Of a stretch of 55,549 bases of DNA, positions 1,538-51,871 are shown piece after piece. Position 1 is the first letter of the stretch; every line of letters starts with the position of its first letter. This DNA is from Lachnospiraceae bacterium (GTDB lineage Bacteria; Bacillota; Clostridia; Lachnospirales; Lachnospiraceae), in contig JAJQHZ010000008.1 of the NCBI GenBank assembly GCA_021199475.1, forward strand, positions 1-55,549. The letters run 5' to 3'. The position numbers were made by a program, and so were the translations under genes. Under the pieces are notes generated by a model. The model was not told where the DNA came from. It searched no databases and worked only from the letters and a program-made list of their open reading frames with translations.

Positions 1538-1633
1538 ATAAATAACGGAGAGCCACGCCATTTATAGTCGCGCGTATGCGCGATGCGTGGCTTGCATCCT
1601 GCATCAAAAAACGATGCAGGATAAATAACGGAG
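1538..1633 (+). mobile_element. Double-hairpin palindromic element with 13-bp flanking direct repeats (element 1, MATE leader)
   Basis: A 70-bp element (1551-1620) is flanked by perfect 13-bp direct repeats ATAAATAACGGAG (1538-1550 and 1621-1633), so it looks transposed. Hairpin 1 pairs GCCACGC (1552-1558) with GCGTGGC (1585-1591) and encloses TCGCGC-GTAT-GCGCGA. Hairpin 2 pairs CCTGCATC (1598-1605) with GATGCAGG (1613-1620). The same hairpin 2 stem occurs in the recD2 element at 49469-49487. The right-hand direct repeat carries the ribosome binding site of the MATE gene, so the insertion sits in its leader. Confidence 0.8.
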
Positions 1634-1641
1634 GCATATCT

Positions 1642-3012
1642 ATGACAAATGAAACCTTGCTCACAGGCAGGCCATGGAAGGGAATTCTTACTTTTATGTT
1701 CCCGGTATTCATGGGGTTACTGCTTCAGCAATTCTATAATACGGCGGACACCATCATTGTCGGTAATTTTGCCGGTGAAACGGCGCTGGCGGCTGTTGGA
1801 GCCTGCGGCGTTTTGACTATGGCCTTTCTTGCACTGGCAAATGGCTTCTCTGCCGGTGCCTGTGTCCTGATTTCACAATTGTTTGGTGCAGGCGAGGATG
1901 AGAAAATGCGCCGCCAGGCATCCTCTTCTTTACTTCTTATGACTGGTATGGGACTGGCAGCGACGGTGGTGGGTGTACTCATCAGTCGTTTTGCGCTTCG
2001 CTATCTCCTTGCCACGCCGGAAAGCCTGATAGACATGGCAGACACCTATTTCAAAATATATTCACTGGGACTGGTATTCCAGTTCGGCTATAACATTATC
2101 GCAGGAATTCTGCGTGGAATTGGGGACAGCAAGGCGACGCTCTATTTTCTGCTGATTGCCAGTGTCATCAACATCGCACTGGACATCGTATTCGTCTACA
2201 ACTTTCGCATGGGGGTAACAGGTGCTGCCATCGCGACAGACATCGCTCAGATTGCTTCCTGCGTGGCTGCTTTTGCTTACATGATGAAAAAATATCCCCT
2301 GTTTCGGTGGAAACCCAAGGAGTTTACTTTTGAGTGGACGCTGGCCAGACAGACGTTACAGCGCGGTTTTCCAATGGCACTGCAGCAGTTGATCGTATCA
2401 CTTGGATTTGTGTTTATCCAGAGAGCGGTCAACAGCTATGGGGAAGCAATGACGGCATCTTTCTCCGTTGCCCAGAAAATCGAAACATACATGACGCTTC
2501 CCTCCAGCGCTTTGCTGACAACCCAGGCCACCTATACGGCGCAGAATATCGGTGCCGGAAAACCGGAGCGGGTGATAACCGGTGCAAAGCATACGGTTAT
2601 TCTCTCTGAACTCATTTCCATCTGCATTTTGTCCGTCGTATTTGTTTTTGCTGCCCCCATTGTAAACGCATTTGGGTTGGGTACGGAAGCTGCCGGTTAC
2701 TGCACCGCACATATCCGGTGCGTGGCGATTTGCCTGATTCCCTTTGCATCCTATTACCCAATATTGGGGCTGTTTCAGGGAGCGAATAACTCGTTGTACT
2801 CCACCTTTGTCGCCACCAGTGCACTGACTGTCAGGGTCATTTCCACCTATGTTTTACAGGAAGTCCCCGCTATCAGTTATCGAATGGTCTGGTGGAATGC
2901 ACTTTTCGGATGGGGACTTGGCTGTATTCTCACATGGGTACATTTTTTCAGAGGAAAATGGAAAAGGAATGCAAGCAGCCCTGTAGTTACCTCAGCTGCA
3001 GACCATCCTTAA
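1642..3012 (+). CDS. MATE family multidrug/Na+ antiporter (first copy)
   Basis: The 456-residue integral membrane protein has the length and about 12 hydrophobic segments of the MATE family, which exports drugs or toxic organic cations using Na+ or H+ gradients. The opening LLTGRPWKGILTFMFPVFMG and the following QQFYNTADTIIVGNFAGE are typical of the clostridial NorM/DinF-like branch. The start at 1642 follows ACGGAGGCATATCT. A palindromic element lies immediately upstream. It shares no close identity with the second MATE gene at 4293-5663, so they are not recent duplicates. The substrate is unknown. Confidence 0.92.
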   Translation: MTNETLLTGRPWKGILTFMFPVFMGLLLQQFYNTADTIIVGNFAGETALAAVGACGVLTMAFLALANGFSAGACVLISQLFGAGEDEKMRRQASSSLLLMTGMGLAATVVGVLISRFALRYLLATPESLIDMADTYFKIYSLGLVFQFGYNIIAGILRGIGDSKATLYFLLIASVINIALDIVFVYNFRMGVTGAAIATDIAQIASCVAAFAYMMKKYPLFRWKPKEFTFEWTLARQTLQRGFPMALQQLIVSLGFVFIQRAVNSYGEAMTASFSVAQKIETYMTLPSSALLTTQATYTAQNIGAGKPERVITGAKHTVILSELISICILSVVFVFAAPIVNAFGLGTEAAGYCTAHIRCVAICLIPFASYYPILGLFQGANNSLYSTFVATSALTVRVISTYVLQEVPAISYRMVWWNALFGWGLGCILTWVHFFRGKWKRNASSPVVTSAADHP

Positions 3013-3180: not shown

Positions 3181-3252
3181 TCATAATGTTAACGCGATAT
3201 TATTATTTTATTCTCTCCTCGCCACCAGCTTTTCGTTCCGTATATCCAGTCG

Positions 3253-4291: not shown

Positions 4292-4292
4292 A

Positions 4293-8223: not shown

Positions 8224-8731
8224 TTGAAAAAGGCTTTGAATGAGAGCCGGTATACCGTTGCCATCACCGGCGCCGGGATCTCCTTTTCCGCAGGCGGCAT
8301 GAACTTTGACCATGAAAATGTGGCGGAGCTTATGCCGCTGGCTTCAGAGGATACGCTTCGGAACGAACCGGATAAGACTCCAGGAACCTGCTTTGCAGAA
8401 CCCTGTCGTTGACTTGCGAAGTTCGCTCCCGCAAGCGCGGCGAACTTCTTGCAAGTCATATTATAAACTGCTCGATCATGCTTTTCTGCATTCCATGTTT
8501 GCCAATGAACCGTCCTATGCGCATAAAGCACTGAGAAGTCTGGAGATCAATGGACTTCTGCAGGGAATTATCACAACTAACGTGGACTGTATGCACACGA
8601 TAGCCGGATTGGAAAATGTGGCGGAAATCCAGGGGAGCCTTCAGATCAATCCGGGTAAAACCAATTTTGATTCGTATGCGTCCCTGAATATCCGTGCGGG
8701 CGCGGATGAGGTTTTCCGGTTGATTGTCTGA
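8224..8731 (+). pseudogene. Sirtuin (Sir2-type NAD-dependent deacetylase), disrupted by a palindromic insert
   Basis: The N-terminal Rossmann strand YTVAITGAGISFSAGG (from TTG 8224) is sirtuin-like. The later segment ITTNVDCMHTIAGLENVAEIQGS carries the conserved TxNxD and the region of the catalytic histidine. Between NEPDK and YYKLL the gene is split by a hairpin element (8377-8458) that introduces TGA at 8410 and shifts the frame by one. The 3' end is also frayed: a degenerate LCP-NDC zinc-like stretch is visible up to about 8800. The gene should be non-functional. Confidence 0.75.
8377..8458 (-). mobile_element. Palindromic element inside the sirtuin gene (element 2, reverse orientation)
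   Basis: TGACTTGC (8410-8417) pairs with GCAAGTCA (8451-8458), and the next layer GAAGTTCGC (8418-8426) pairs with GCGAACTTC (8440-8448). Together they form one 17-bp stem around CCCGCAAGCG. On the reverse strand the hairpin is followed by AAGTCAACGACAG, the same linker seen in the brxA-brxB element at about 14688-14700, and then a second weaker CAGG/CTGC stem (8380-8405). The insertion breaks the sirtuin reading frame. Confidence 0.7.
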
Positions 8732-11655: not shown

Positions 11656-11820
11656 GTATAGCATGATTTTAGACGGAGGACTAACAGTATGGATGAAAAG
11701 CACCTGGAACGGGTTCGCTCTTTTATAGAGGAGCGGGGCTGGAATTATAATTATTCCGAAGAGGATGGATGCGGAAGTATTGATTTTGAATATCGCGGCC
11801 TTGCTTATCATATATATTGT

Positions 11821-11938
11821 CCGTGATTTGCGAAGCAAATCATGGACGTAGGCCGAGCCATTGCGCGTAAGCGCAATTTGGAATGGTTTATCCCGTCCGC
11901 AGGATGGGATGCCACCCGGCGAGGGCGAGGCTCTCCTT
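11821..11938 (-). mobile_element. Palindromic element in the small gene (element 3, reverse orientation)
   Basis: TGATTTGC-GAA-GCAAATCA (11824-11842) is followed by TGGACGTAGG and ATTGCGC-GTAA-GCGCAAT (11860-11877). The outer arms are GAGCC/GGCTC. Read in reverse it matches the metallo-hydrolase element (51738-51756 hairpin and its CCTGCGTCC linker) base for base apart from two changes in the stem and a transition in the linker. It introduces a stop but keeps the reading frame length. Confidence 0.75.
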
Positions 11939-12002
11939 GTATCTGGGAGTTTGATGATGGAGAACGCGGAGTGGAGACCAATCTGCGGCATGGAGGACGG
12001 AA

Positions 12003-12096
12003 CATGGAGCACCTGCATTTAAATCGCCTTTGGCGATGGGCAGGTGCGTAGGTGGCAAGGTATCCTCCCGCAAGCGGGTCCCTCCTTACCACAAAT
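12003..12096 (-). mobile_element. Palindromic element in the small gene (element 4, reverse orientation)
   Basis: Two hairpins are joined by a short linker. GCACCTGC (12009-12016) pairs with GCAGGTGC (12040-12047) around ATCGCC-TTT-GGCGAT. GTGGCAAGG (12052-12060) pairs with CCTTACCAC (12084-12092) around CCCGC-AA-GCGGG. The reverse-strand core AAGGAGGGACCCGCTTGCGG resembles the brxA-brxB element. The order hairpin-linker-hairpin is the family pattern. Confidence 0.7.
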
Positions 12097-12209
12097 TTCG
12101 GAGATTACGAGGCTGAGATACTCGCGATTATGCAGAACTGGCATTAAGGCACATATCGGAATTCAGTCAAGTTTCAATTGAAATCAGTTGAAATCTTCGA
12201 AAAAACATA

Positions 12210-13788: not shown

Positions 13789-14016
13789 ATGGTTAGCTAC
13801 AATAAACTATGGAAGTTACTCATTGATAAACGGATGAAAAAGAAAGATCTGGCGGAAGCTGCAGGTATCAGTGCGAATACAATAGCCAAAATGGGGCGGG
13901 ATGCTTTGGTGTCTTTGGAAGTATTAGTACGTATTTGCCGGGCATTGAAGTGCGATATAGGAGATATTGTGGAAGTCCTTCCAAATAGTTTGGTTCCTGG
14001 GGAGGCTAGTGAATGA
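13789..14016 (+). CDS. XRE/Cro-type transcriptional regulator of the BREX operon
   Basis: 75 residues form a single helix-turn-helix domain: LWKLLIDKRMKKKDLAEAAG, then ISANTIAKMGRDALVSLEVL, ending with the Cro/C1 signature CRALKCDIGDIVEVL. Its stop overlaps the brxA start (ATGA), so both are made from one message and translation is coupled. By position it is likely an autoregulator of the operon. Many BREX loci instead have the larger WYL-type regulator BrxR, so this is an alternative controller. It carries no effector domain; how it senses anything is unknown. Confidence 0.85.
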   Translation: MVSYNKLWKLLIDKRMKKKDLAEAAGISANTIAKMGRDALVSLEVLVRICRALKCDIGDIVEVLPNSLVPGEASE

Positions 14017-14642
14017 CGATAAAGAATACAGTGGCCTTGAAAGGAACTAGCCCATACAGTGCTGTGATTACGAGGGAGCAATTCCTTTTTTATGAGACGA
14101 GGACGACGGCGAAGCTGGTGACCGAAGGACTCTCAAGAGAGGAAATTGTGAATCGGATTATTGCAGATAATTTGTTCCAGTATCCGACGGAAAAATCCGT
14201 GCGACGGATGGCTGTTACATGCCTGAGACGTCTGGATGCTTTGGAGGATGATTCTCTTGTGGAGGCGATTGCCAACCGCCCACAGGACACGGCAAAGCAA
14301 ATCTGCCTGTACGCGATGATGAAGCAGTATCGGCTGATTTGGGATTTTATGATTACGGTAATTGGCGAGAAGTACCGTTTATTGGACACTTCATTTGGTA
14401 AAATAGATATCAACGGATACTTTTTGCGTCTGCAGGAGCAGGATGACTGGGTGGCGTCCTGGAGCGATTCTACCATAACGAAGCTTAAACAGGTCATGAT
14501 TAAGCTCCTAGTGGACAATGAATATCTGGACAACACGAAATCAGAAAAGCTGAACCCGGTGCTGATCAGCCCCATACTTGAGGCTGCTATCCGGGAAAGC
14601 GGAAACACACAGGCACTCACGGCATTTAATTGCTTTGGATAA
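14013..14642 (+). CDS. brxA: BrxA, BREX protein of the DUF1819 family
   Basis: 209 residues, the normal length for BrxA, a small helical DNA-binding protein needed in type I BREX defence. Family features seen: the opening GTSPYSAVITREQFLFYETR and TAKLVTEGLSREEIVNRIIA, then a late helical block EAAIRESGN near the C-terminus. First core gene of the operon, overlapping the XRE regulator by 4 bases. The order brxA-brxB-brxC-pglX confirms the identity. A palindromic element lies between it and brxB. Confidence 0.92.
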   Translation: MTIKNTVALKGTSPYSAVITREQFLFYETRTTAKLVTEGLSREEIVNRIIADNLFQYPTEKSVRRMAVTCLRRLDALEDDSLVEAIANRPQDTAKQICLYAMMKQYRLIWDFMITVIGEKYRLLDTSFGKIDINGYFLRLQEQDDWVASWSDSTITKLKQVMIKLLVDNEYLDNTKSEKLNPVLISPILEAAIRESGNTQALTAFNCFG

Positions 14643-14643
14643 T

Positions 14644-14757
14644 GTGACTTATCGGAAGGAGGGGACGCTTGCGTACCCGGAACCGATAAGTCAACGACAG
14701 AATCGCCAAATTCTGGAGAATTATGCGAAGTGTTTTTCTTCGCATAATTCGTATGGT
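14644..14757 (+). mobile_element. Palindromic element between brxA and brxB (element 5)
   Basis: Hairpin 1 has perfect 10-bp arms GACTTATCGG (14646-14655) and CCGATAAGTC (14683-14692) around AAGGAGGGGACGCTTGCGT. The linker AACGACAG matches the sirtuin element. Hairpin 2 has perfect 13-bp arms (14718-14730 and 14738-14750; arm GAATTATGCGAAG) around TGTTTTT. Near-repeats ATGTGAC and ATGTCAC at the two edges may be a worn target duplication. As part of the BREX message it could affect RNA stability or the brxA to brxB ratio; that is inference. Confidence 0.7.
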
Positions 14758-14788
14758 AAATGTCACGCCATGAGGAGGAATGCGTAAC

Positions 14789-15346
14789 ATGGGTAATCTA
14801 AACGAGCGACTCGACAGCTTAAGGGCTTTGATCCAGGAGCCGGATTTTCTGGATGGCAAGGGATTAAGCAATGAGGTCAACATCCGCATCTTCTGTTATG
14901 ATGCTGCGGATGAGATGGCAGTCCGGCACTTTGTGGGGCAGCTGAAAACAGACCAGTCATTGAAATGCCATCTGGTGGAATATGATTTATACAAGCTGTT
15001 CCTTTCCCTCTGTGATGACATGGGAATTACAGAGGAAATATTGGGTGTAGAGGAAAATGACGGTTCGGAGTATCTTCTGGAACAGCTTCACGGCTCAATA
15101 GGCGAAGGCGAGTTTATAGAGAAAATGATGTATTCTCCCCATGAACGAGGGGATGTGATATTGCTCACGGGAGTTGGCGACGTGTTTCCGTTTATGCGGG
15201 TTCATGCATTGCTGGAATCCATGCAGGTTGATTTCTCAGATGTTCCCATTCTGGTGATGTATCCGGGTGAATTTGACGGGCGGCATTTGAAATTGTTTGA
15301 CCGACTGAAACCAAATGACTATTACAGGGCATTTAACGTACTGTAA
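14789..15346 (+). CDS. brxB: BrxB, BREX protein of the DUF1788 family
   Basis: 185 residues beginning MGNLNERLDSLRALIQEPDF, the standard BrxB opening. The DUF1788 ATP-less fold is recognised from YDAADEMAVRHFVGQL, DVILLTGVGDVFPFMRVHAL and the closing YPGEFDGRHLKLFDRLKPND. BrxB is an essential core component of type I BREX. ATG 14789 is preferred, since GAGGAGG at 14772-14778 is 10 bases upstream, whereas ATG 14780 is too close. Next gene: brxC after 68 bases. Confidence 0.92.
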   Translation: MGNLNERLDSLRALIQEPDFLDGKGLSNEVNIRIFCYDAADEMAVRHFVGQLKTDQSLKCHLVEYDLYKLFLSLCDDMGITEEILGVEENDGSEYLLEQLHGSIGEGEFIEKMMYSPHERGDVILLTGVGDVFPFMRVHALLESMQVDFSDVPILVMYPGEFDGRHLKLFDRLKPNDYYRAFNVL

Positions 15347-15414
15347 AAGCGTTCACAATAGATAATCAGAAAACCTTTTACTAATAAAAATGAACGACAG
15401 GGAGGGACACTGGT

Positions 15415-18400
15415 ATGCAGATAAGAGAAATGTTTGAGGATGACATCAACCGCCCGATAAATGGTGTTATCAAGGTGGATCAGGATGCGCAGGATGTTAT
15501 TAAGGATGAAGTACAGGAATATGTCATTACAAAAGAACTGAAAAAACATATGATCCACTTTTTTGATTATTACAGTGAATCCTTCGATACACCAACAGCG
15601 GATACCGGTGTCTGGATTTCCGGATTCTTTGGAAGCGGCAAATCGCATTTTTTAAAAATGCTGTCTTACATATTGGAAAATAAGATGGTGGATGGTGTGC
15701 CGACCGTCGAGCGGTTCCGCGGCAAGTTTGCGGATGACCCGGCCACCTTTATGCTGATCGACCGTTCGACACGGTATGAAACGGAAACGATTCTTTTTGA
15801 TATTGATATTGAAGGCTCGATTAACAAGAACAGGACTGCGGTTTTGCGCGTTTTTGCAAAGATGTTCTATAAGCATCTGGGCTTTTATGGCGAAAATCTG
15901 AAAGTGGCTTTGTTGGAGCAGTATATCGACCAGCAGGGAAAGACCGAGGAATTCCGCCGTGTTTTTGAAGAGAAAAAGGGCAGGCCCTGGTTGGAGCAGC
16001 GCAAGGCATTTGCCTTTAATGGAAAGACGATCATTCCTACTTTGATGGAAGTGTTGGACATGAGCGAAGAGGATGCCCGTGACTGGTTTCAGGATAAGTC
16101 TTCTGTAGAATATTCTATTTCCAGTCTGGTAGAAGATGTCAAAGCTTATGTTGATAACAAACCGGCGAATTTTCGCCTGCTCTTTATGGTGGATGAGGTC
16201 GGTCAGTATGCCGGCACCGATACAGATATGCTTTTGAACCTCCAGTCTTTGGTTGAAAAGTTTGGCAGCGAGTGCATGGGAAAAGTCTGGGTTGTATGCA
16301 CTGGTCAGGAAGCAATTGATGAGATTATTAAAGTGCGCTCGGATGAGTTCTCCCGCATTCAGGCCCGCTTTAAGACGAGGCTTTCCCTCTCTTCTTCTTC
16401 CGTAGATGAGGTGATCCAGAAGCGTGTGCTGAAAAAGAAGCCGGATTATGAGAAGCGTCTGCAGCAGGTTTATGATATCAACGATTCCACTCTCCGGAAT
16501 CTGTATACGTTCCGTGACTCTATTCTTGATATCAAAGGATTTGAAGGCCCCCAGGAATTCTCTGATGATTTTCCGTTTGTGCCTTATCAGTTTATTATTA
16601 TGCAGAAAGTGTTCACGGAAATTCGTAAGCATGGCAACGCTGGCAAGCATATGTCCGGTGGTGAACGCTCTATGCTTTCCGGATTCCAGGAGGCGGCACA
16701 GAAGGTGCAGGAGAAGGACGAGTTTGCCCTCGTGCCGTTCTTCCGCTTTTATGATACCGTACATACCTTCCTCGACGGTTCTATCCGTCGGGTAATCGAA
16801 CGCTGCCAGAGGGCAGCCGACAATAACCTTGGTCTGAAGCAGCAGGATGTGGATGTATTAAAGCTCCTGTATCTCATCCGCTATGTGGATGACATTCCGG
16901 CAAACCTTGATAATATTGTGATTCTGATGGCGGATGATATTCGCACGGATAAAATTGAGCTTCGTGAGAAGATGCGCGGCAGTCTTGACCGCCTGCTTAG
17001 CCAGAACTATATCGGACGGAACGGTGAAGTATATAACTTCCTGACCGATGAGGAGCAGGATATTGCGAGGGAGATTCGTAATACAAACGTGGACACCTCT
17101 GCCATCGTGACGCAGCTTGGTCGTATGATTTTCGGTGATATTTATCAGACGAAGAAGTACCGTTACGGCAAGTATGACTTTGACTTCGACAAGATGGTGG
17201 ACGGCATGGCAGTCGGTGCGGTGACAGGCGGCATGCGCCTCCGCTTCCTGACAATGGCGACAGACGCTACAGAGAAAAATGAACTGCATCTCCTGACACA
17301 GTCCAAGGGGCAGGCTCTCGTGGTGCTTCCGGACGCGAAGTATTACGAATCAATAGAAAATGCGATGAAGATCCGCAAGTATGTGAAACAGCGCAACGTG
17401 TCACAGCTTCCCGGCTCCATGCAGACGATTATAAAAAAGCAGCAGGAAGAGGCGGATGCGTATGAGACCTCCTCGATGGATGAATTGAAAGAGGCAATTG
17501 AGAATGCTGCCTTCTATGTGGACGGCGAACATCTGGTAATTAAGGGCGGCGATGCCAAATCAAAGATTGACCAGGCGTTGGAGTATCTCGTTGTCCATGT
17601 ATACAGTGGCCTTGACCTGATTACCAAAAACGCAGAGACTGACGCCGACATCTATTCGATTCTGCGGAAGGAAGAAGTCATGCTCCCCGGCACGGAGCCA
17701 AACCGCGATGCAGCGGCAAAGATGGAGGAATATCTGGAGGTTCAGTACAAGCGAAATCTTCCGACTTCTATGGCGGATGTGCAGAGCCGGTACCAGGGAA
17801 TTCCCTATGGCTGGCGCGAGATTGATATCGCCGCTGTAGCCGCACAGCTGATTGTTGACCAGAAGGTCACCATCAAATATGCCGGTACCACCATCCAACC
17901 GGATAATCCGAAGCTGCCGGATATGCTGCGCAAAAAGAGCGAAATTGGGAAAACCATCATCTCCAAGCGTATTCTGAACTCTGCAGCTAACATCCGCGAC
18001 GCGAGGGATTTCCTGCGGGAATATTTTGACGTGATGGATGTGCCACAGGATGAGGACGGGCTGATTGCATTTATTATAAAGAAATTTAGTGAGCAGCGTG
18101 ATTATTACGCTGAATTGGATAAGAAATACGCAGGGCATAAATATCCTGACCACGCTCTTGTGTCGCAGGCAATCCAGCTGACGGATGATGTCTTAAGCCA
18201 GCAGAAGGACAATATCGCCCTTGTGCAGAGATTGCTGAAGCGCATGGATGACCTTGACGACAACAAAGAAAAGATGCAGCGTGTGGAGAACTTCTTCAAA
18301 AGTCAGGTGAAGGTGTTTGATGCGGCGGTCAAACTGGAAGCTGACCTGCGTCATGAGTTGGACTACCTCTCCCATGAGCCGGAAGCCAATGATGCCCTGA

Positions 18401-18978
18401 ATCAGATTCGGCTGATTTGCATCGTGCAGCCTGGTGGGAAGTTTGATTACAAGCGTATCCCGGAACTGAATGGGCTGATGTCTAAAGTTCACGAAGGGCA
18501 TGACCGCCTGCTTGCTGCCAAGCGCGAGGAGCTTTTGGAGATGGTACGCCAGTGCATGGAGGCAATCCACACGGCAGCAGATGGAGATTTCAATTCGAAG
18601 AATATCATCCAGACGGCTGATAACTTCTATACGGCAAAGAAACAGCAGATAGCGGAATATGAAAGCCTGGCTCTGCTGGACGGCCTGATTCCGCCGATGC
18701 TCCAGGAGAAGGACAAGGCGGTGGACAGACTGGAAGCCGCAAAACGCCCGAAGGAGCCGCCGAAGCCGCCCGTGGAGCCGAATGCTGTGCATGAGCCGCC
18801 ATTTCCTTATGGTACGAAGAAGACAGCTCCGAAGAAAGTCTATAAAAGCCTGAACCGCTCCATCGTCTTTCCTGCAAAGCGGTTGGAGAGCGAGGAGGAC
18901 ATCAAAGCCTATGTTGAAAAAATGCAGGATACGCTGCAGCAGCTTTTGAAGAACTGTGACGGCATTGATTTGAAGTGA
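15415..18978 (+). CDS. brxC: BrxC, large P-loop ATPase of BREX
   Basis: 1187 residues, typical for BrxC, the large ATPase core of type I BREX. The Walker A motif GFFGSGKS is at residues 70-77 and the Walker B segment LLFMVDEVGQ is near residues 255-264. A sensor-like WVVCTGQEA follows near 300 and a long helical C-terminal half with a proline-rich stretch (PKEPPKPPVEPNAVHEPP) near 1115-1135. GGGAGGG precedes the start. The pglX gene begins across its stop codon, so the two are tightly coupled. Confidence 0.95.
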   Translation: MQIREMFEDDINRPINGVIKVDQDAQDVIKDEVQEYVITKELKKHMIHFFDYYSESFDTPTADTGVWISGFFGSGKSHFLKMLSYILENKMVDGVPTVERFRGKFADDPATFMLIDRSTRYETETILFDIDIEGSINKNRTAVLRVFAKMFYKHLGFYGENLKVALLEQYIDQQGKTEEFRRVFEEKKGRPWLEQRKAFAFNGKTIIPTLMEVLDMSEEDARDWFQDKSSVEYSISSLVEDVKAYVDNKPANFRLLFMVDEVGQYAGTDTDMLLNLQSLVEKFGSECMGKVWVVCTGQEAIDEIIKVRSDEFSRIQARFKTRLSLSSSSVDEVIQKRVLKKKPDYEKRLQQVYDINDSTLRNLYTFRDSILDIKGFEGPQEFSDDFPFVPYQFIIMQKVFTEIRKHGNAGKHMSGGERSMLSGFQEAAQKVQEKDEFALVPFFRFYDTVHTFLDGSIRRVIERCQRAADNNLGLKQQDVDVLKLLYLIRYVDDIPANLDNIVILMADDIRTDKIELREKMRGSLDRLLSQNYIGRNGEVYNFLTDEEQDIAREIRNTNVDTSAIVTQLGRMIFGDIYQTKKYRYGKYDFDFDKMVDGMAVGAVTGGMRLRFLTMATDATEKNELHLLTQSKGQALVVLPDAKYYESIENAMKIRKYVKQRNVSQLPGSMQTIIKKQQEEADAYETSSMDELKEAIENAAFYVDGEHLVIKGGDAKSKIDQALEYLVVHVYSGLDLITKNAETDADIYSILRKEEVMLPGTEPNRDAAAKMEEYLEVQYKRNLPTSMADVQSRYQGIPYGWREIDIAAVAAQLIVDQKVTIKYAGTTIQPDNPKLPDMLRKKSEIGKTIISKRILNSAANIRDARDFLREYFDVMDVPQDEDGLIAFIIKKFSEQRDYYAELDKKYAGHKYPDHALVSQAIQLTDDVLSQQKDNIALVQRLLKRMDDLDDNKEKMQRVENFFKSQVKVFDAAVKLEADLRHELDYLSHEPEANDALNQIRLICIVQPGGKFDYKRIPELNGLMSKVHEGHDRLLAAKREELLEMVRQCMEAIHTAADGDFNSKNIIQTADNFYTAKKQQIAEYESLALLDGLIPPMLQEKDKAVDRLEAAKRPKEPPKPPVEPNAVHEPPFPYGTKKTAPKKVYKSLNRSIVFPAKRLESEEDIKAYVEKMQDTLQQLLKNCDGIDLK

Positions 18979-18989
18979 GGGAACTGGTA

Positions 18990-21900
18990 ATGGATAAGAA
19001 TGCGATAAAAAAATATGCGACATGGGCAAGGCGTGAACTGATTTCTCGTGTATCTCAGAAAGCGGAATTCTATGGCGTAACGGCGAAGGGATACGGCGAT
19101 TTCAATGCGGACAGTATTGACGGTCGTGTCCTGTCGTCTACCGAGAAAGAGCAGAGACAGGCGCTGATTCATAAAGTTCGCTCGGAAGGTTATGAGCAGG
19201 CAATGGAGGAAGTTGCATACACCTGGTTTAACCGCTTTTCTGCCCTGCGCTATATGGAGGTCAACAACTACTTTCCTACCCGTGTGCGCGTCTTTACCAA
19301 TGAGAACGGCGAATTCAAGCCGCAGATTATTGACGAAGCCATCCATCTGGAACTGGATGGGTTGGACATGGAGAAAGTCTATTCTCTCAAGGATGCAAAT
19401 GACACAGAGGCACTGTATCGCTATTTGTTGATTACTCAGTGCAATGCTTTAAGCAAAATCATGCCGGTTATGTTCCAGAAGATTGATGATTACACGGAGC
19501 TTCTTCTGCCGGATTATCTTCTCCGTGAGGGAAGCGTAATCGAGCAGATGGTTACTTCTATCCCGGAAGAAGACTGGACTGACCAGGTGCAGATTATTGG
19601 ATGGCTGTACCAGTATTATAATGCGGAGAAAAAGGATGAGGTTTTCGCTGCGCTTAAGAAGAACGTAAAGATTACAAAGGAGAATATTCCTGCTGCTACG
19701 CAGCTTTTTACCCCGGACTGGATCGTACGTTATATGGTAGAAAACTCTCTTGGCCGTCTTTGGGTGGAAGGGCATCCAAATGAGCAGTTGAAATCCGGGT
19801 GGAAATACTACCTGGAGGAAGCCGAGCAGGAGGCGGATGTCGAAGCACAGCTGGCAGAGATTCGCAAGGAATATGCTGTGCTGAAACCAGAAGAAATTTT
19901 GTGCATCGACCCCTGTGCAGGCAGCGGCCATATACTCGACTACCTGTTCGACATTTTGATGCAGATTTACACGGACTATGGCTATACGACATCGGAAGCG
20001 GTCAGGTCAATCGTTGAGAATAATCTCTACGGTCTTGACATTGATGAGCGTGCGGCACAGCTTGCCTATTTCTCTGTGATGATGAAGGCAAGAAGCTATG
20101 ACCGTCGGTTCCTGACCAGAAAGGATGAGGACGGCAATCCTAACATTCCACAGCCCTATGTGTATGCCATCGTGGAGAGCAACCATCTGAACCAACTGGA
20201 TATCGAATACTTCACGAACAATGACCCGAAGCTGAAGAAGGACTTCGGAGTGTTGGTGGATGAACTGCATGATGCGAAGGAGTATGGCTCTATCCTGAAT
20301 GTTTCGCAGGTGGATTTTGTTGCTCTTTATGCGAGAATGGATGAGGTACGCAGCGACATCAGTATGTACAAAGAGCCCACGCTGAAGACCATCCTGCCGC
20401 TGATTCAGGTGGCAGAGGCTTTGGCGCAGAAGTACCACGTGGTTTGTACAAATCCGCCTTATATGGGTTCTAGCGGCATGGGAGCAAAGCTGGGGAAATA
20501 TGTGAAGGACAACTACCCGGACAGCAAGAGCGACTTGTTCGCTGTGTTTATTGAGCGGTGTGGAGTAATGACTGCCAAGAAAGGCTATCAGGCAATGATT
20601 ACCCAGCACGCGTGGATGTTTCTGTCCAGTTTTGAAAAGCTCCGGGGAAAGTTGCTGCAAAAAGATACAGTCAATATGGCTCATTTGGGACCAAGAGCGT
20701 TTGAAGAAATCTGCGGCGAGGTTGTACAGACCACAAGCTTTGTGCTGTGCAACGGCCACAACACTGACTATAAGGGCACCTACTGCCGCCTGATTGAACC
20801 AACCACCCAGCAGGGCAAGGAACATATGTTTTTGACTGGTGAAAACCGCTACACTGCTCAGCAGTCGAACTTTGCCCAAATTCCTGGTTCTCCGGTAGCA
20901 TATTGGATTTCAGAGAACTATATCAAAGTTTTTGAAGGCAAACGTATGTCTGATTTTGGTGCTTCGTGCATTGGGATGCGAACAGGTGATAATGAAAGAT
21001 TCTTGCGCTTTTGGTTTGAGGTAAGCGAAACCAAGTTCGGAGTAGGTTTTTCAAATGCAGATGAAGCGCAAGGAAGTGGAAAGAAATGGTTTCCGTACTG
21101 CAAGGGAGGCAGTTTTAGAAAATGGTACGGAAACAACGATTATGTTGTTAATTGGGAGAATAATGGGTTTGAAATCAAAGAAAACACCAAAAGAGTCTAT
21201 CCGTATCTTGGCGATAACCTTGGTTGGAAGATTAGCAATGAAAGCTATTATTTCAAATCTGGCTTAACATGGTCTGGTGTCGGGGCTAGGGTTTTTGGCG
21301 TGAGAGCTTACCCATCTGGCATGATATTTGATTCGGGGGCAAACAGCTATTTTGTTAATGATGCTGATGACTATGAGTATTTTGCGGGTTTATTGAATTG
21401 TAATGTAATCAATAATACCATCAATATTATAAATCCGACAATAAACACAGGTTGTGGCGTTATTGCACAACTTCCTGCTATCTATTCTAAGCGCCAGAAA
21501 CCTGATATTAAAGAAAAAGTTATTCAATGTATAGATATCTCACATAACGACTGGGATGCCTTTGAAACTTCTTGGGATTTTAAACGGCACCCGCTCATTC
21601 CTACCATGCAAGATAAGCAGGAACAGGAAAATTCGCAATTTGTTTCTTCGCGTATGGAGAAGTTCGGACGGATTTCGTGGCATTACGATAAATGGGTGAA
21701 CGAGTGCGCTGACCGCTTTGCTCAACTGAAAGCCAATGAGGAGGAACTGAACCGCATCTTCATTAACATCTATGGTTTGCAGGATGAGCTTGCCCCAGAG
21801 GTCGAGGATAAGGATGTGACTGTGCGTCTGGCAGATAAAGCTCGTGACATTCGCTCTTTCATTTCCTATGCGGTTGGTTGTATGTTTGGACGCTACTCTC

Positions 21901-22547
21901 TGGATGTTGATGGGCTTGCTTATGCCGGAGGCGAGTGGGATGCTTCAAAGTACAGCACTTACATTCCTGACAAGGATGGAATTATCCCCATTTGCGATGA
22001 TGAGTATTTTGAGGATGACATTGCAAACAGGTTCGTGGATTTCGTCCGTGTCGTTTACGGAAAGAATACGTTGGAGGAGAATCTGAAATTTATTGCGGAT
22101 GCGCTCGGCGGCAAGGGTGCGCCGCGTCAGGTCATCCGGAACTATTTTATGAATGATTTCTATGCCGACCACCTGAAGGTTTATCAGAAGCGCCCGATTT
22201 ACTGGCTCTTCGACAGCGGCAGGAAGAATGGCTTCAAGTGCCTGATTTATATCCACAGGTACAAGCCGGACACCATTGCTCGTATCCGCACGGATTATGT
22301 GCATGAGCAGCAGGCGCGTTATCGCACCGCGATTGCCGGATTGGAAAACCAGATTGCAAATGCAGGTACCGGCGAACGTGTGAAGCTGAATAAGCAGCTC
22401 AAAAAGCTGCAGGATCAGGCGGACGAGCTGCACGGATACGAGGAGAAAATACACCATCTGGCTGACCAGTTCATCTCGATTGATTTGGACGATGGTGTGA
22501 AGCACAACTATGAAATATTTAAGGATGTCCTGGCAAAAATAAAGTAG
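18990..22547 (+). CDS. pglX: PglX (BrxX), BREX adenine-N6 DNA methyltransferase
   Basis: About 1185 residues. S-adenosylmethionine motif I is DPCAGSG (residues 306-312) and catalytic motif IV is NPPY (488-491), as in gamma-class N6-adenine methyltransferases. The enzyme marks host DNA at a non-palindromic site and takes part in exclusion of unmodified phage DNA. ATG 18990 is chosen over the GTG at 18975, since GAGGGAAC lies between them. A segment at about 630-870 (bases 20880-21600), the expected target-recognition region, is visibly richer in A and T than the flanks, suggesting domain exchange. The C-terminal part is coiled-coil-like (ENQIANAG...KQLKKLQDQADEL). Confidence 0.95.
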   Translation: MDKNAIKKYATWARRELISRVSQKAEFYGVTAKGYGDFNADSIDGRVLSSTEKEQRQALIHKVRSEGYEQAMEEVAYTWFNRFSALRYMEVNNYFPTRVRVFTNENGEFKPQIIDEAIHLELDGLDMEKVYSLKDANDTEALYRYLLITQCNALSKIMPVMFQKIDDYTELLLPDYLLREGSVIEQMVTSIPEEDWTDQVQIIGWLYQYYNAEKKDEVFAALKKNVKITKENIPAATQLFTPDWIVRYMVENSLGRLWVEGHPNEQLKSGWKYYLEEAEQEADVEAQLAEIRKEYAVLKPEEILCIDPCAGSGHILDYLFDILMQIYTDYGYTTSEAVRSIVENNLYGLDIDERAAQLAYFSVMMKARSYDRRFLTRKDEDGNPNIPQPYVYAIVESNHLNQLDIEYFTNNDPKLKKDFGVLVDELHDAKEYGSILNVSQVDFVALYARMDEVRSDISMYKEPTLKTILPLIQVAEALAQKYHVVCTNPPYMGSSGMGAKLGKYVKDNYPDSKSDLFAVFIERCGVMTAKKGYQAMITQHAWMFLSSFEKLRGKLLQKDTVNMAHLGPRAFEEICGEVVQTTSFVLCNGHNTDYKGTYCRLIEPTTQQGKEHMFLTGENRYTAQQSNFAQIPGSPVAYWISENYIKVFEGKRMSDFGASCIGMRTGDNERFLRFWFEVSETKFGVGFSNADEAQGSGKKWFPYCKGGSFRKWYGNNDYVVNWENNGFEIKENTKRVYPYLGDNLGWKISNESYYFKSGLTWSGVGARVFGVRAYPSGMIFDSGANSYFVNDADDYEYFAGLLNCNVINNTINIINPTINTGCGVIAQLPAIYSKRQKPDIKEKVIQCIDISHNDWDAFETSWDFKRHPLIPTMQDKQEQENSQFVSSRMEKFGRISWHYDKWVNECADRFAQLKANEEELNRIFINIYGLQDELAPEVEDKDVTVRLADKARDIRSFISYAVGCMFGRYSLDVDGLAYAGGEWDASKYSTYIPDKDGIIPICDDEYFEDDIANRFVDFVRVVYGKNTLEENLKFIADALGGKGAPRQVIRNYFMNDFYADHLKVYQKRPIYWLFDSGRKNGFKCLIYIHRYKPDTIARIRTDYVHEQQARYRTAIAGLENQIANAGTGERVKLNKQLKKLQDQADELHGYEEKIHHLADQFISIDLDDGVKHNYEIFKDVLAKIK

Positions 22548-22561
22548 CAGAGGAGGGATGA

Positions 22562-23683
22562 ATGATGCCGATTAAATCGATTAAGGTATCGAATGTTATG
22601 GCTTTTCAGCGCCAGTGGCGTAAGAATAACGGAGATCCGAAAGAAGGAGAACTGAAATCCGGGGACAGAATCCATGATGCGTTTATGCTGGATTTCTCGG
22701 ATGGTATTAATGTTGTGATTGGAGAGAACGGAACCGGGAAAACGACTCTTCTCAAAATGATCTATGCTGCTACACAGTGGTCGAACGAAAAAACGGATGC
22801 TGGAAAAACTGACAGATTTTATAAGTTCTTCTCTAATAACCTGTCTGATTCGGATTTGTTAAAAAATGAAGATCATAAAGAAGGGTTTTGCTATTTTGAA
22901 GTATCAGATGGAGAACACAGTTTTCAATATAGTTTGTCTCATAAAGCCATTTTTAATTTTGACAACTGGCTGGGTTTGAATATTTCATCCGTTATGATCC
23001 CTACGACGGAGATGCTTTCTCACTCGAAAGGTTTTCTGGCGTTGAATAACAAGTACAAAATGCCCTTTGACGGAACACAGGTGGACATCATTGTAAACGC
23101 CTCTTTGCCGGAAGCGCGCAATGTTCCTGCATATATGCAGGCTATTCTTGACCAGATCAGTGAGGTGATTGATGGGGAAGTCATTCAGGAAGATGATACC
23201 TTCTATGTTGTAAAAAAGGATGGAAGAAAGATTGATTTTTCGCTGGAAGCAGAAGGACTTCGGAAACTGGCATTGCTTTGGAAGCTGATACGAAACGGAT
23301 TGCTGGAAAAAGGAACGGTTCTGCTTTGGGACGAACCGGAATCGAATTTAAATCCGGAGCTATTTCCTCTTGTCGCCCAGATTTTACTGGAACTTCAGAA
23401 AAACGGGATTCAGATTTTTGCGGCAACACACAGCTATAATTTTGCGAAATATCTGGAGATTCTCAGAAGTGAAAAAGAACAGGTGAAATTTCATAGCCTT
23501 TATAAAGGGACATCTGAACTGCCAGACAGATTAAAAGGTGCGTTTTCGGATGTGAACCATCGTAATGATGAAGTCTATGGAAGTTCTGCTTTTTCAATGG
23601 AAGAGTTACAGCCGAATCATATCATGCAGGCAGATGAAAAACTGTTGGATATGGTTTATGAGGATATGGTGGGGAGAAAATGA
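22562..23683 (+). CDS. AAA (ABC/OLD-like) ATPase embedded in the BREX operon
   Basis: 373 residues with Walker A GENGTGKTT at 54-62, a signature region near 228-240 (FSLEAEGLRKLALLWKL) and Walker B VLLWDEPESNLNPE near 257-270. A switch histidine sits in AATHSYNFAKYL, so it is an SMC/OLD-type ATPase of the AAA_15/AAA_21 kind. No TOPRIM domain is fused; the partner gene starts 4 bases before its stop and carries a nuclease-like signature instead. Base composition is clearly more A/T-rich than the BREX core genes. It is not a core BREX gene; it is probably the sensor ATPase of a second defence module. Confidence 0.85.
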   Translation: MMPIKSIKVSNVMAFQRQWRKNNGDPKEGELKSGDRIHDAFMLDFSDGINVVIGENGTGKTTLLKMIYAATQWSNEKTDAGKTDRFYKFFSNNLSDSDLLKNEDHKEGFCYFEVSDGEHSFQYSLSHKAIFNFDNWLGLNISSVMIPTTEMLSHSKGFLALNNKYKMPFDGTQVDIIVNASLPEARNVPAYMQAILDQISEVIDGEVIQEDDTFYVVKKDGRKIDFSLEAEGLRKLALLWKLIRNGLLEKGTVLLWDEPESNLNPELFPLVAQILLELQKNGIQIFAATHSYNFAKYLEILRSEKEQVKFHSLYKGTSELPDRLKGAFSDVNHRNDEVYGSSAFSMEELQPNHIMQADEKLLDMVYEDMVGRK

Positions 23684-24216: not shown

Positions 24217-24243
24217 ATATCCGAACCGGTGGTTCGGATATTC
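24215..24243 (+). promoter_or_regulatory. 12-bp perfect hairpin between the nuclease-like gene and pglZ
   Basis: GAATATCCGAAC (24215-24226) and GTTCGGATATTC (24232-24243) pair around CGGTG and begin inside the stop codon of the upstream gene. There is no T run, so it is not a simple terminator. It may protect or process the message, or tune pglZ level. Confidence 0.6.
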
Positions 24244-24277
24244 GATAAAGGCGAACTGAAGCAGGAGACAGGAAATT

Positions 24278-26881: not shown

Positions 26882-26908
26882 TGTCTTATGTTTTAAGGGG
26901 ATTTTGGC

Positions 26909-27106: not shown

Positions 27107-27203
27107 TTACAGAATTCCGGGCGGAGATAAAATTTATATGTATCGAAATGAAACCTGAAATCGGTTTAAGGCGGATCCTTGCAAATTAGAATGGGGTAAG
27201 AAT

Positions 27204-27437: not shown

Positions 27438-27454
27438 AAGGAGATTTGATTCGA

Positions 27455-45169: not shown

Positions 45170-45310
45170 GAGGTGATTTGCGGCGCTGGCGGCAGGAAGT
45201 CTCGAGGGTCAACAAGCAGCTGTGCTGCGAGTATGAAGAAATATGCGCGCTTGCGCCAGAAAATTTCTATGTTCAACGAGCAACGCAGTTGTGAGCAGGA
45301 AAAATGAACG
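45170..45310 (+). repeat. Two degenerate palindromic elements in the flavodoxin leader (elements 6a, 6b)
   Basis: The leader has GGGTCAACAAGCAGC-TGT-GCTGC (about 45208-45227) and then AGAAAT...ATTTCT arms around GCGCGCTTGCGC (about 45237-45268), followed by TTCAACGAGCAACGCAG. The TCAAC(A/G)AGCA linker and CGCTTGCG core recall the sirtuin and brxA-brxB elements. The match is weaker, so these may be old copies. Confidence 0.4.
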
Positions 45311-48113: not shown

Positions 48114-48893
48114 ACAAAATTATTAAGGCAGGGTGGCGGCGTTATGGATAATCTTCGTTGTGTGGTGGAACGAATTACATATCAGAACGCGGAAAACGGT
48201 TTTTCTGTGATCAAATGCCGCGCAAAAGGCTACAGTGACCTGGTGACAGTGGTCGGAAACATGCCGGATGTCCATGTCGGCTCGGTACTGTCTATACAGG
48301 GGCAGTGGAAGATTGACGGCAAGTATGGGCGGCAGTTCTCGGCTGAGAAGTGGGAGGAGACGCTTCCGGCTACAACTTACGGAATCGAGAAGTATCTGGG
48401 CAGCGGTTTGATTAAAGGTGTTGGCCCGAAGTTTGCGAAACGGATTGTTCAACAGTTCGGAAAGGATACGCTGGAGATCATCGAGACGGAGCCGGATCGG
48501 CTGCTTGAAGTGGCTGGTATAGGGCAGAAACGTGTGAACCAGGTCAAGAAAAGCTGGCAGGAACAGAAAGAGATCAAGAACATCATGTTATTCCTGCAGA
48601 GCAATGATGTCAGCACTGCCCATGCCGCGAAGATTTACCGTACCTATGGAAATGAAAGCATCAAAATTGTCAAAGAAAATCCATACAAGCTGGCAGATGA
48701 TATATGGGGCATCGGCTTTAAAACAGCAGACACGATTGCATCAAAGCTTGGGATTGAAAAAGACCGCTTTATCCGACTGCGGAGCGGCATCATGTATACG
48801 CTTAACAAGCTTTCGGAGAGTGGACATTGCTATGCGGGTCGGGAACAGCTGATTGATGCTGCTGTGAAGCTCTTGGATTTGGAAACGGCACGC

Positions 48894-49029
48894 GCGCCTG
48901 AAGGCGCACCTGCCAGGACGAAGCCGCCAACGGAGTTTGCTCTACACTCCGTTTCGGTCGGCGCTAAACGAACGTCCACTGGACGTTCGTTTAGCGCCGC
49001 AAAGGGCGGCTTCTGTAGAGGCTCCTGAG
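48894..49029 (+). mobile_element. Palindromic element in recD2 (element 7)
   Basis: Near-identical ends GCGCCTGAA (48894-48902) and GCTCCTGAG (49021-49029), both coding APE, look like a target duplication. Within lie outer arms AAGCCGCC (48921-48928) / GGCGGCTT (49005-49012), a 7-bp ACGGAGT/ACTCCGT stem and an 18-bp perfect stem (48960-48977 with 48981-48998). The net 127-base insertion shifts the frame by one; 126 would have kept it, so a later one-base change is likely. Confidence 0.7.
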
Positions 49030-49411
49030 CTGGAGATGACGTTGGATGAAATGCTGCGTACCTCTGATGTGATTAAAGATGATGACGCGATTTATCTGCC
49101 GCCATTCTATTTTTCAGAGACCGGCTGCGCGAAACGTCTGATACGCCTGATGAAGGGTGAACGGCGTGTATCACTGGATGTGGAAAAAGTCATGCGGGAG
49201 ATCGAATCAGATTCCAGGATTCGCTATGACGAGATTCAGTTGCAGGCGATTCGAGAAGCGATATCATCAAAAGTGATGGTATTAACCGGTGGCCCCGGCA
49301 CGGGGAAAACAACAACGACGCTGGGGATTATCTCTGCTTATCGGAAAGCAGGCTGCAGGATTATCCTTGCGGCTCCAACCTGACGCGCTGCGAAGAGGAT
49401 GTCGGAAGCAA

Positions 49412-49497
49412 TACGGGAAAGCCGCGTCATGCAGAATCGCGCGGATGGCGCGATGACGCGGCCTGCGTCCTGCATCGAAGATGCAGGACAGGTAATG
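49412..49497 (+). mobile_element. Palindromic element in recD2 (element 8), in frame
   Basis: GCCGCGTCAT (49421-49430) pairs with ATGACGCGGC (49453-49462) around TCGCGC/GCGCGA. The linker CTGCGTC leads to hairpin CCTGCATC-GAA-GATGCAGG (49469-49487). It inserts about 26 codons between MSEA and MEAKTIHR without a stop. Both the arms and the second stem match element 1. Confidence 0.8.
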
Positions 49498-51094
49498 GAA
49501 GCGAAAACGATTCACCGTCTGCTGGAATACAAGCCCCCGGAAGGCTATCAGAAAAACGAGGAGCATCCGCTGGAAGGTGATGTCCTGATTCTGGATGAGT
49601 GCTCGATGATCGATATTATGCTCATGTACAATCTTTTGAAAGCGCTTCCGGAAGAAATGACGCTGATACTGGTCGGCGATACCGACCAGCTGCCGAGTGT
49701 GGGAGCCGGAAATGTTCTGAAGGACATTATTGCATCCGGGAGCATCCCGGTTGTCCGCCTCACCCGTATTTTCCGGCAGGCGCAGGGGAGCCGGATTATC
49801 ATGAACGCGCATCGAATCAACAAAGGCGAAATGCCGGATCTGCGTGGCGGTCGGGATTCCGATTTCTTTTTTGCTGCAAAAGACACGAATGAAGAAGTTG
49901 TTGATCTGCTCGTAAAATACTGTACGAAGAACCTGCCTTCTTACTATCATGTGAATGCATTTTCGGATATACAGGTATTGACACCGATGCAGCGCGGCGT
50001 TTGCGGTGCAGCGAATCTGAATCAGGTTTTACAGGAGGCTTTGAACCCTGGAACAATCTTTCTGAAGCGCGGCGGTACGCAGTACCGGCTGCACGATAAG
50101 GTGATGCAGCAGCGCAACAATTACGACAAGGAAGTGTTCAATGGGGATATCGGCATCATCTCAAATGTAGATATGGAAGAAAATGAGTTGACCGTAGACT
50201 TTGATGGACGGAGTATTACCTATGATGTGACGGAGCTGGATGAGTTGACGCTCGCTTATGCTTCAACGATTCATAAAGCGCAGGGGTCTGAATATCCGAT
50301 TGTAGTCATGCCGTTTACCATGAGTCACTATGTGATGCTGCAGCGGAATCTGTTATATACCGGCATTACCCGTGCAAAAAAGATTCTTGTGCTGATTGGC
50401 GAGAAAAAAGCGATCGCCTATGCTACACACAACGAAACGACAACATCCAGAAATACAAAGCTCGCGGAACGGATTGCAAACGGATGGAAAGATGCATCCA
50501 AAGCAGGAATGATGCAGAAAGATGCCGCTGGGACTAACAGTCACGATCAGAATAATCAGGATGCAGAAGATTTGCCGATGGTGGCCGAGCAGATAGCACC
50601 TTATGGAAGGAAATCGGATAATTCCAAAGTCAGATTTTCAGACAGATGCTCGGATGGGGTTCCGGATATCGCCTCAGATACCATCTCAGATCGATCTGCA
50701 GAGCTTTTTGCTGACTTATTTGACCGGCTGTCACGTTCTAAATTCCGCAGCAGCTTTTTTCTGAAATCAGCCGATGTCGCATATGTCAGGAATAAAGGGA
50801 TGGATACGATTCACTCTCATGCTTGTGATTTTATCCGCCAGAGACTGGCTCCTGCAGAGCCAAAGAATGATGGAAAGCAGACTCCGATGAGAGGGCATCC
50901 CGTTTTCATAGCGCAGCACGCGACCGGTTGCTGTTGCAGAGGCTGTCTGGAAAAATGGCATAGAATACCGAAAGGGAAAGAGTTGTCGGAAGAACAGCAG
51001 AAATATGTTGTAGATGTTTTGATGGCGTGGATTGAGAGACAGATGAAAGCGAACGAAGGGAGTTAAAATCATATATGATACAGATGGAGGAATT

Positions 51095-51871
51095 ATGTTG
51101 AGAATTACATGGATAGGGCATTCGTGTTTCAAATTGGAGAAGGATGGCTATACGATTATAACTGACCCGTATGCAGATGGAAGTGTGCCTGGATACACTC
51201 CGGTACACGAGAAAGCAGACATGGTTCTTTGCAGTCATGAATATGCAGACCACAACTTTCGTGATGGAGTTGAGTTGATCGAAAGGTCGGGGCTTCCGTT
51301 TCATGTGGAAGTAATTGAAACTTATCATGATGAAGTGTGTGGGAAAAAGCGTGGCCCGAATAAGATTTTCATTATTGATGATGGAGAAAACCGCGTTGCT
51401 CATTTTGGAGATTTAGGGTGTGAGCTTACGCCGGAGCAGATGGAAAAACTGCAGAATCTGGATGTGGCTATGGTTCCTGTCGGAGGTTATTTTACGATAG
51501 ACGCGAGACAGGCGGCAGATCTTGTCTGCTCATTGAAACCCGAAATTGTGATACCGATGCATTACAGGAGTGATAAGTACAGTTTTGGATATGATGTGAT
51601 TGGAACAGTTGACGAGTTTACTGAGATTATGGAGAGCCGCGCCGTGCAAAATCGCGCTAATGGCGCGGTGCTGAGCGCCAGTGGCGCTCGTTTAGCACCG
51701 ACCGGAGCGGGTAGCGTAGAGGCGCGGCCTGCGTCCATGATTCGCAAAGCGAATCACGGACATATTATGGATAACGTTAAAACATTATCCGGAAGTGAGA
51801 TCGAAATCGCATCAATGAATGCTTCAGGACCACAGGTAACCGTACTACAGCCCAGAAATATGGCAATATGA
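51095..51871 (+). CDS. UPF0173 metal-dependent hydrolase (MBL fold) with in-frame palindromic insert
   Basis: 258 residues. Metallo-beta-lactamase fold: opening LRITWIGHSCFKLEKDGYTI, metal motif CSHEYADHNF, then GDLGCELTPEQM, and metal histidine in IPMHYRSDKYS. The C-terminal part should read EFTEIMDNVKTLSGSEIEIA. Here a 46-codon insert lies between EIM and DNV without any stop (51634-51763). The catalytic core is upstream of it, so the protein may still fold with an extra surface loop. Substrate is unknown. AGGAGGAATT precedes the start. Confidence 0.88.
   Translation: MLRITWIGHSCFKLEKDGYTIITDPYADGSVPGYTPVHEKADMVLCSHEYADHNFRDGVELIERSGLPFHVEVIETYHDEVCGKKRGPNKIFIIDDGENRVAHFGDLGCELTPEQMEKLQNLDVAMVPVGGYFTIDARQAADLVCSLKPEIVIPMHYRSDKYSFGYDVIGTVDEFTEIMESRAVQNRANGAVLSASGARLAPTGAGSVEARPASMIRKANHGHIMDNVKTLSGSEIEIASMNASGPQVTVLQPRNMAI
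51626..51771 (+). mobile_element. Palindromic element in the MBL-fold gene (element 9), in frame with 8-bp duplication
   Basis: The 130-bp insert (51634-51763) is flanked by perfect 8-bp repeats ATTATGGA (51626-51633 and 51764-51771). Outer arms GCCGCGCC (51636-51643)/GGCGCGGC (51721-51728) enclose CGCGC/GCGCG and GAGCGCC-AGT-GGCGCTC stems. The linker CTGCGTCC then leads to TGATTCGC-AAA-GCGAATCA (51738-51756). Total insertion is 138 bases, a multiple of three. Confidence 0.85.

Follow-up and report, generated by a model that had tools for sequence, protein, structure and literature searches.

What are the paired hairpins that recur through a 55,549-nt stretch of the genome of a Lachnospiraceae bacterium (contig JAJQHZ010000008.1; the whole stretch is hereafter the window), and how did they come to lie there? 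The window, contig C155, belongs to a draft genome of 3.80 Mb in 165 contigs, and an earlier note on the window had listed nine places as copies of a single family of elements. A dispersed, modular, double-hairpin family is supported by the present analysis; its main type, here called family A, exists in many copies, has inserted at sites that are empty in relatives, keeps its structure and contains nested modules. We hold with about even confidence that these elements are small mobile palindromes, clade-specific and non-autonomous, which an enzyme acting in trans recognises as DNA hairpins and moves. The insertion itself is observed, the mover inferred.

Family A comprises two adjacent hairpins, about 80 bp together, in the order AGCCGCGC-inner hairpin-GCGCGGCC, linker TGCG, TCC-stem-GGACAT. 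It has no terminal inverted repeats, the ends AGCC and GGACAT not being complementary. The CCTGCGTCC linker marks this family, and the AAGTCAACGACAG linker marks a second one, family B. A covariance model of family A (R1), built from 15 copies in the source genome, gave there at least 134 matches at E ≤ 0.1 and at least 122 at E < 1e-5, on both strands, in agreement with the two orientations that had been claimed for the elements; the count of 134 is a lower bound because the best 150 of 2121 candidates were scored. Nominally, 132 of the 134 matches span model positions 1-84, and the short ones among them show that some are partial. A few are assembly duplicates, because at least three element pairs recur identically on contigs C75 and C141, and four matches (on C91, C157, C50 and C102) stand outside the counts made below on 130 copies. 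The linker pattern CGYGGCYTGCRTCC has 34 exact matches in the same genome, compared with none for its reversed control, and at least two of the 34 (L024/L025, plus strand, and L029) have no surrounding element. The family B linker has four exact matches there, and the family B model (R2) has 15 at E ≤ 1e-4.

Family A elements insert, because 15 distinct sites have empty counterparts in relatives, an outcome that, with the copy number given above, answers positively the earlier proposals to count copies and to compare presence and absence between genomes. These sites represent 28 of 37 compared pairs; eight other pairs were set aside as tandem-copy differences and one as a weak pair. The net insert is 83-90 nt in simple copies and 78 nt in recD2. 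Within the window, empty alleles exist for the family A elements at 11813, 49412 and 51630, and also for the elements at 12003 and 48894. No empty allele was found for the 1546 element, where the relatives G032 and G030 carry other DNA, nor for the family B copies of the window. The places concerned are listed below with their model scores and the z-score of their fold against dinucleotide shuffles.

1546-1629, plus strand: family A element immediately preceding the ribosome-binding site that serves a MatE gene (1642-3012, PF01554); R1 79.9 bits, E 6.5e-29; z -7.4.
1539-1550, plus strand: left direct repeat TAAATAACGGAG abutting that element; right copy at 1622-1633, 12 of 12 positions identical.
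8377-8460, minus strand: divergent family B element within a SIR2-like open reading frame (ORF) at 8306-8731 (PF02146, 35.9 bits); R2 32.2 bits, E 1.3e-5, match 8356-8461; z -5.8.
11813-11940, minus strand: family A element with nested module X, in a small reading frame; R1 31.6 bits; z -4.7; site empty in G060, element simple in G032 and G014.
11887-11925, minus strand: module X, a 39-nt hairpin in the first hairpin of that element, identified by sequence comparison; the same element in G032 and G014 is without it.
12003-12097, plus strand: double hairpin of a third type, with stems GCACCTGC and GTGGCAAGG; z -3.6; empty in G032, present in G060.
14642-14748, plus strand: family B triple hairpin between brxA and brxB of a BREX locus (PF08849, PF08747); R2 126.1 bits, the copy being one of the eight R2 founders; z -6.1.
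45170-45310, plus strand: place listed by the earlier note; not an element.
48894-49029, plus strand: composite of several palindromes in a recD2-like gene (PF14490), ending its first reading frame at 49028; z -7.2; the site is without it in G026, G060 and G032.
49415-49496, plus strand: family A element in the same recD2-like gene, translated in frame within the downstream ORF 49399-51066; R1 76.3 bits; z -5.9; empty alleles in G026, G060 and G032, net insert 78 nt.
51630-51767, plus strand: family A element containing module Z; it lies in frame within the gene of a metallo-beta-lactamase-fold hydrolase (51095-51871); R1 61.3 and 63.5 bits; z -5.8.
51668-51720, plus strand: module Z, net 51 nt, in the first hairpin of that element; the equivalent paralogue on contig C159 is without it.
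51626-51633, plus strand: left-hand target repeat ATTATGGA, with its right-hand counterpart at 51764-51771; empty sites have it once.

Of the nine places that had been listed as hairpins, eight have folds well beyond those of dinucleotide shuffles (z -3.6 to -7.4; in each case none of 200 shuffles was as good). The ninth, 45170-45310, was rejected on its fold (z +0.23, 112 of 200 shuffles folding at least as well), and it has no R1 or R2 match. The grouping of all copies in one family had to be abandoned, at least three sequence families (A, B and the third type) and the composite having been merged in it.

The hydrolase site near the end of the window is represented by 22 alleles, of which six are filled (two each in the source genome, G014 and G032) and 16 are without the insert; the gene is multicopy in several of these genomes. 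Four close empty alleles (G026 has two, G060 and G009 a single one each) read GAGAT(T/A)ATGGATAA and so contain ATTATGGA, or a sequence one base off, once; the window copy has it on both sides. Around the hydrolase gene of G014 (L335, G014:C26), eight family A matches lie within 9.2 kb.

At two sites for which both simple and empty alleles are known, a module lies within the first hairpin. The 11813-11940 site occurs in three states: empty in G060, simple in G032 and G014, and with module X in the first hairpin in the window. At the hydrolase site, the C159 paralogue is simple and the window copy has module Z in its first hairpin, while the G032 copy at that site bears module X in the 5′ arm; in other copies of the source genome, X lies in the 3′ arm and in the opposite direction. 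Some source-genome copies have an additional hairpin between GCGCGG and the linker.

The structure is maintained while the sequence varies, as had been suggested from the window copies. In a set of 103 source-genome matches (E ≤ 1e-7, from 91 sources), in an alignment fitted to the model, the stem covariation score is 0.398, compared with 0.131 ± 0.006 in shuffles, with 353 cells changed on both sides (115 in shuffles) and two-sided change at 19 of 21 pairs (13.1 in shuffles). Paired cells amount to 89.3%, compared with 72.5% in shuffles and 31-53% in slid controls. The second hairpin in particular has paired stems of many different sequences.

Among the genomes searched, the carriers of family A are one subclade of the host genus, with single matches elsewhere lying apart. 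An R1 match at E ≤ 0.001 is present in 16 of 60 genomes, the source genome included, which divide into 14 of 36 from the genus and 2 of 24 from other families. Twelve of the genus genomes have from 13 to at least 75 matches and two have a single match, as does each of the two genomes of other families. In an rpoB tree of 28 of the 30 genus genomes sought, 13 carriers lie on one side of a branch with support 100/100, which requires one change of state, and the 15 others lie outside it, the nearest of these in the tree being G016, G017, G019 and G023; the two single-match genus genomes fall outside the carrier clade, and the carrier status of G060 is that given by R1 matches in its loci. Family B is spread differently, occurring in 23 of 40 genus genomes and having 17 matches in G003, which has no family A match. 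Carriage by phages was rejected by a narrow test with one family A pattern, which gave three IMG/VR contigs, none with an R1 match at E ≤ 0.001; the ORFs of one of these (L383) are those of a high-GC genome that is apparently unrelated.

Family A copies occur beside promoter-like boxes and ribosome-binding sites as well as within genes. Those of a subset reading TGAAAGCC directly follow a -10-like TANNWT box in 12 of 14 cases, compared with 47 of 638 background windows. Among the 121 of 130 copies with enough flanking sequence, a Shine-Dalgarno-like site and a start codon follow within 60 nt downstream in the sense direction in 47 and on the other side in 15, two copies having them on both sides. 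Coding insertions are in frame in the hydrolase, in an alpha/beta-hydrolase and in a recD2 paralogue on contig C14, and other coding insertions break the frame. In G032, a copy with a 12-bp flank repeat lies within a Y1 transposase gene and stops the frame of that gene.

The junctions bear on how such copies arrive. The boundary and flank rules are satisfied by 83 of the 130 source-genome copies, and a test of flank repeats anchored at the element ends, with copies from relatives added, covers 120 copies, 87 of them non-tandem. Among the 87, the mean score is 3.26, compared with 1.95 when permuted (p ≤ 5e-5), and eight reach a score of 8 where 0.9 is expected (p ≤ 5e-5); among them, L165 has a partial second copy behind it and is better called tandem, which leaves seven. 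Clear repeats are 8-16 bp long and belong to a minority of copies, in some of which 12-16 bp are clean. Further sites are clean without a repeat, or have a few bases replaced at the left junction. Target duplication, about which the earlier note had asked, is thus apparent in some copies and is not general, the repeats being absent or imperfect at other sites.

Among the explanations that compete with an enzyme acting in trans, the one that survives best dispenses with a dedicated enzyme, palindromes being spread by replication slippage, template switching or homologous exchange between like flanks. In its favour, some filled alleles have several target bases replaced next to the left junction, GGA is often common to element and target, and at one site the tandem copy number is two in the source genome and one in G032. 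It accounts poorly for more than 100 dispersed copies whose parts follow the same order and whose ends recur, and for the clean 12-16 bp repeats in some of them, and we regard it as unlikely. Derivation from a DDE transposon, in the manner of miniature inverted-repeat transposable elements (MITEs), would fit short, non-coding elements of which some are flanked by repeats of 8-16 bp. Against it, the ends AGCC and GGACAT are not inverted repeats, the repeat length varies, and a crude pattern applied to 912 kb of partly overlapping DNA revealed no element with its halves more than 174 nt apart; a DDE origin is, on this evidence, quite unlikely.

The search for a mover covered the Y1, Y2 and reverse-transcriptase families. 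The statement that no transposase is visible was borne out for the 46 window ORFs compared with Pfam, which gave no transposase or recombinase match (small or overlapping ORFs were not scanned). At E ≤ 1e-5, neither Y1 (PF01797) nor reverse transcriptase (PF00078) nor Y2 (PF04986) has a match in the carrier G012, a 100% complete genome with 54 copies, and so copies can persist without any of the three; the Y2 search had matches in 0 of 14 control genomes and in 4 of 20 genus genomes, the latter being its only positive control. All three families were accordingly rejected as an obligatory mover still present; a mover may have been lost after the spread. In five of the 13 carriers (G012, G014, G027, G030 and G035) no Y1 match was found at E ≤ 1e-5, G027 being 65% complete and the other four 90-100%; the other eight carriers have at least one Y1 match each.

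A full-length element encoding a mobilising enzyme, which the earlier note had proposed to seek, did not come to light: no coding copy with the same ends was recognised in the 912 kb of fetched, partly overlapping DNA with the crude pattern, whole genomes not being scanned. In that test, 53 of 133 left-half matches had no right-half match and the right half of many complete copies was missed, and the five distances above 400 nt proved to be four complete copies with a missed right half and one match in apparent coding DNA.

Movement on single-stranded DNA by a Y1 transposase of the RAYT or IS200/IS605 type, in the manner of REPINs, would be in keeping with the lack of terminal repeats, hairpins near the ends, a fixed mismatch in hairpin 2, structure that outlasts sequence, and the Y1 match in 8 of 13 carriers. 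It is decidedly unlikely, given that no PF01797 match was found in five carriers, that an element (E < 0.001) is present in only 2 of 30 Y1 loci, one of them inside the Y1 gene, that the GT(A/G)G head is missing in 53 of 69 copies, and that there is no inverted doublet. The sequence before GCC is of the TGAAA, GGAGA or GGAA type in those 53 non-tandem copies; the other 16 are mixed, with single heads of the GTA type.

Whether the palindromes act as DNA or as RNA can be approached from their imperfections. In a fold selected as sense RNA, G-U pairs would generally be expected to exceed A-C mismatches. The stems hold 60 G-U pairs and 110 A-C mismatches, counted as cells of related copies, with G-U/A-C values by helix of 20/23, 25/26 and 15/61. 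One place in hairpin 2 has a fixed A-C in 34 copies with 16 arm-pair sequences, some of them near-identical, and without that place the counts are 59 and 76. Selection as sense RNA is therefore disfavoured because A-C mismatches are at least as common as G-U pairs, and a sense-RNA role as the reason for the kept stems was rejected for lack of a G-U excess. The counts fit palindromes made perfect as DNA and then decaying, or recognised on the complementary strand, and the fixed A-C looks like a recognised feature.

These results bear on the two remaining alternatives. Retroposition like that of short interspersed elements (SINEs), in which a structured RNA would be copied at the target by a reverse transcriptase, could account for a structured unit without terminal inverted repeats and with flank repeats varying between 8 and 16 bp; it is very unlikely when G012 is without PF00078 (0 matches, 0 candidates), 30 reverse-transcriptase loci proved free of any element at E ≤ 0.01, and G-U pairs are not in excess. 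That the elements are immobile cis-acting RNA leaders, kept by selection on their fold, is most improbable despite the fold z-scores and the sense bias just before ribosome-binding sites (47 and 15 of 121), given the empty alleles, the frame-breaking insertions, the modules inserted in copies, the missing G-U excess, and site presence that varies between close relatives.

Mobile palindromes moved in trans thus remain the preferred reading, and the course of events under it might have been as follows. The family would have had a single origin and would later have spread inside the clade; an enzyme supplied in trans would recognise the folded DNA by its shape plus a few fixed bases; and copies would decay afterwards without selection as RNA. 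Recognition of this kind would account for the retention of pairing and tips in copies whose stem sequences differ. A more particular proposal has the hairpin shape read, in folded single-stranded or cruciform DNA, by an enzyme outside the Y1, Y2 and reverse-transcriptase types, so that modules unlike in sequence could replace one another and nest; it is put forward tentatively, as a rather improbable refinement.

Several observations weigh against mobility in trans. No mover was found among the families and DNA searched. Many sites lack flank repeats or have imperfect ones (L162:1501, L342:4808, L336:4629 and L335:6595 are examples), which makes the junctions non-uniform; in an unanchored test, 11 of 45 single copies score at least 8 where about two are expected, again a minority. 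The downstream bias of Shine-Dalgarno-like sites would also suit a role as a 5′ leader. The alignment behind the covariation values, having been fitted to the model, leans towards it, and the A-C and G-U cells, coming from related copies, are not independent events.

Some neighbouring features of the window may be recorded here. The BREX locus extends from 14013 to 29515 and comprises, by Pfam, BrxA, BrxB, BrxC, an Eco57I-type methylase in the PglX position, an AAA protein, PglZ and BrxL; the methylase gene lies at 18975-22547. The recD2-like gene (48144-51066) is in pieces, with an in-frame stop ahead of its family A copy, and its last ORF also has a DUF4186 domain. Between 31535 and 41619 there are several direct-repeat pairs of about 70-300 nt and 74-94% identity, which resemble duplicated gene stretches. 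Elsewhere in the source genome, contig C117 (L344:17889-18054) contains a 165-bp repeat, with copies 96-99% identical and no R1 match in it; the matches listed include at least nine near-full-length occurrences in G030, five in G060 and one in G032.

The claim that no named family fits agrees with the searches made: Rfam models matched neither the window (gathering scores) nor the element in ten source-genome loci (E ≤ 0.5), and no paper describing the family A element was found in the open-licence literature searched, where one of four literal strings occurs in a paper on an acidophile (PMC7237784). At the source-genome locus L040, two matches to GA-cis RNA (RF02987) above its gathering score lie on opposite strands, at 405-487 (plus) and 2257-2339 (minus). 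Family A is filed as a variant of the small palindromic mobile repeats and as a member of no named family, the latter because defining features of REP/RAYT elements (the GT(A/G)G head in most copies, a Y1 gene in every carrier) and of MITEs, Correia, RUP and ERIC included (terminal inverted repeats), were looked for and were not found.

As the papers describe these systems, family A is closest to YPAL/RU-2 and REPINs in how it works and to CIR in its appearance. YPAL/RU-2 of Yersinia, about 168 bp long with target repeats of 3-26 bp, shares with it small size, internal palindromes, variable target repeats, empty and filled sites and in-frame fusions; it differs in being longer and in belonging to another host group, and nesting of hairpin modules is not mentioned in that account, the comparison being one of descriptions and not of sequences (PMC2229807). 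CIR of Caulobacter and Brucella, at about 110 bp, likewise has two hairpin arms and a linker and is intergenic, but it has a conserved GANTC and is described as not found inside genes, whereas family A also inserts into genes (PMC2229807). GATTC is present in some second hairpins of family A and not in others. The palindromic elements of Rickettsia also occur in frame in conserved proteins and between genes, but have 12-bp terminal inverted repeats, of which family A has none (PMC2229807). REP, BIME and REPIN elements with RAYT resemble family A in high copy number, GC-rich hairpins, clusters and complementary changes, and REPs inside tnpA genes have been described; REPs and REPINs are inverted doublets in these accounts, whereas family A has two unlike hairpins in one direct order (PMC2817692, PMC3116915, PMC6006769). 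They are described, moreover, with a GT(A/G)G head and a Y1/RAYT gene, whereas most family A copies are without the head and several carriers without a Y1 match. The MITEs RUP and Correia/NEMIS are, like family A, about 100 bp long, dispersed and without a transposase gene, and have terminal inverted repeats and TA ends, neither of which is present in family A (PMC2229807).

The system described here is a high-copy set of mobile palindromes: its sites have both empty and filled alleles, some copies contain nested modules, and a single clade carries it. No earlier description of such a system came to light. With it, the movement of small palindromic repeats that have no terminal repeats becomes testable within one clade, where the mover, if still there, would be a gene of the carriers that their sisters may lack. 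For the host, the elements supply in-frame peptide insertions as well as new 5′ leaders.

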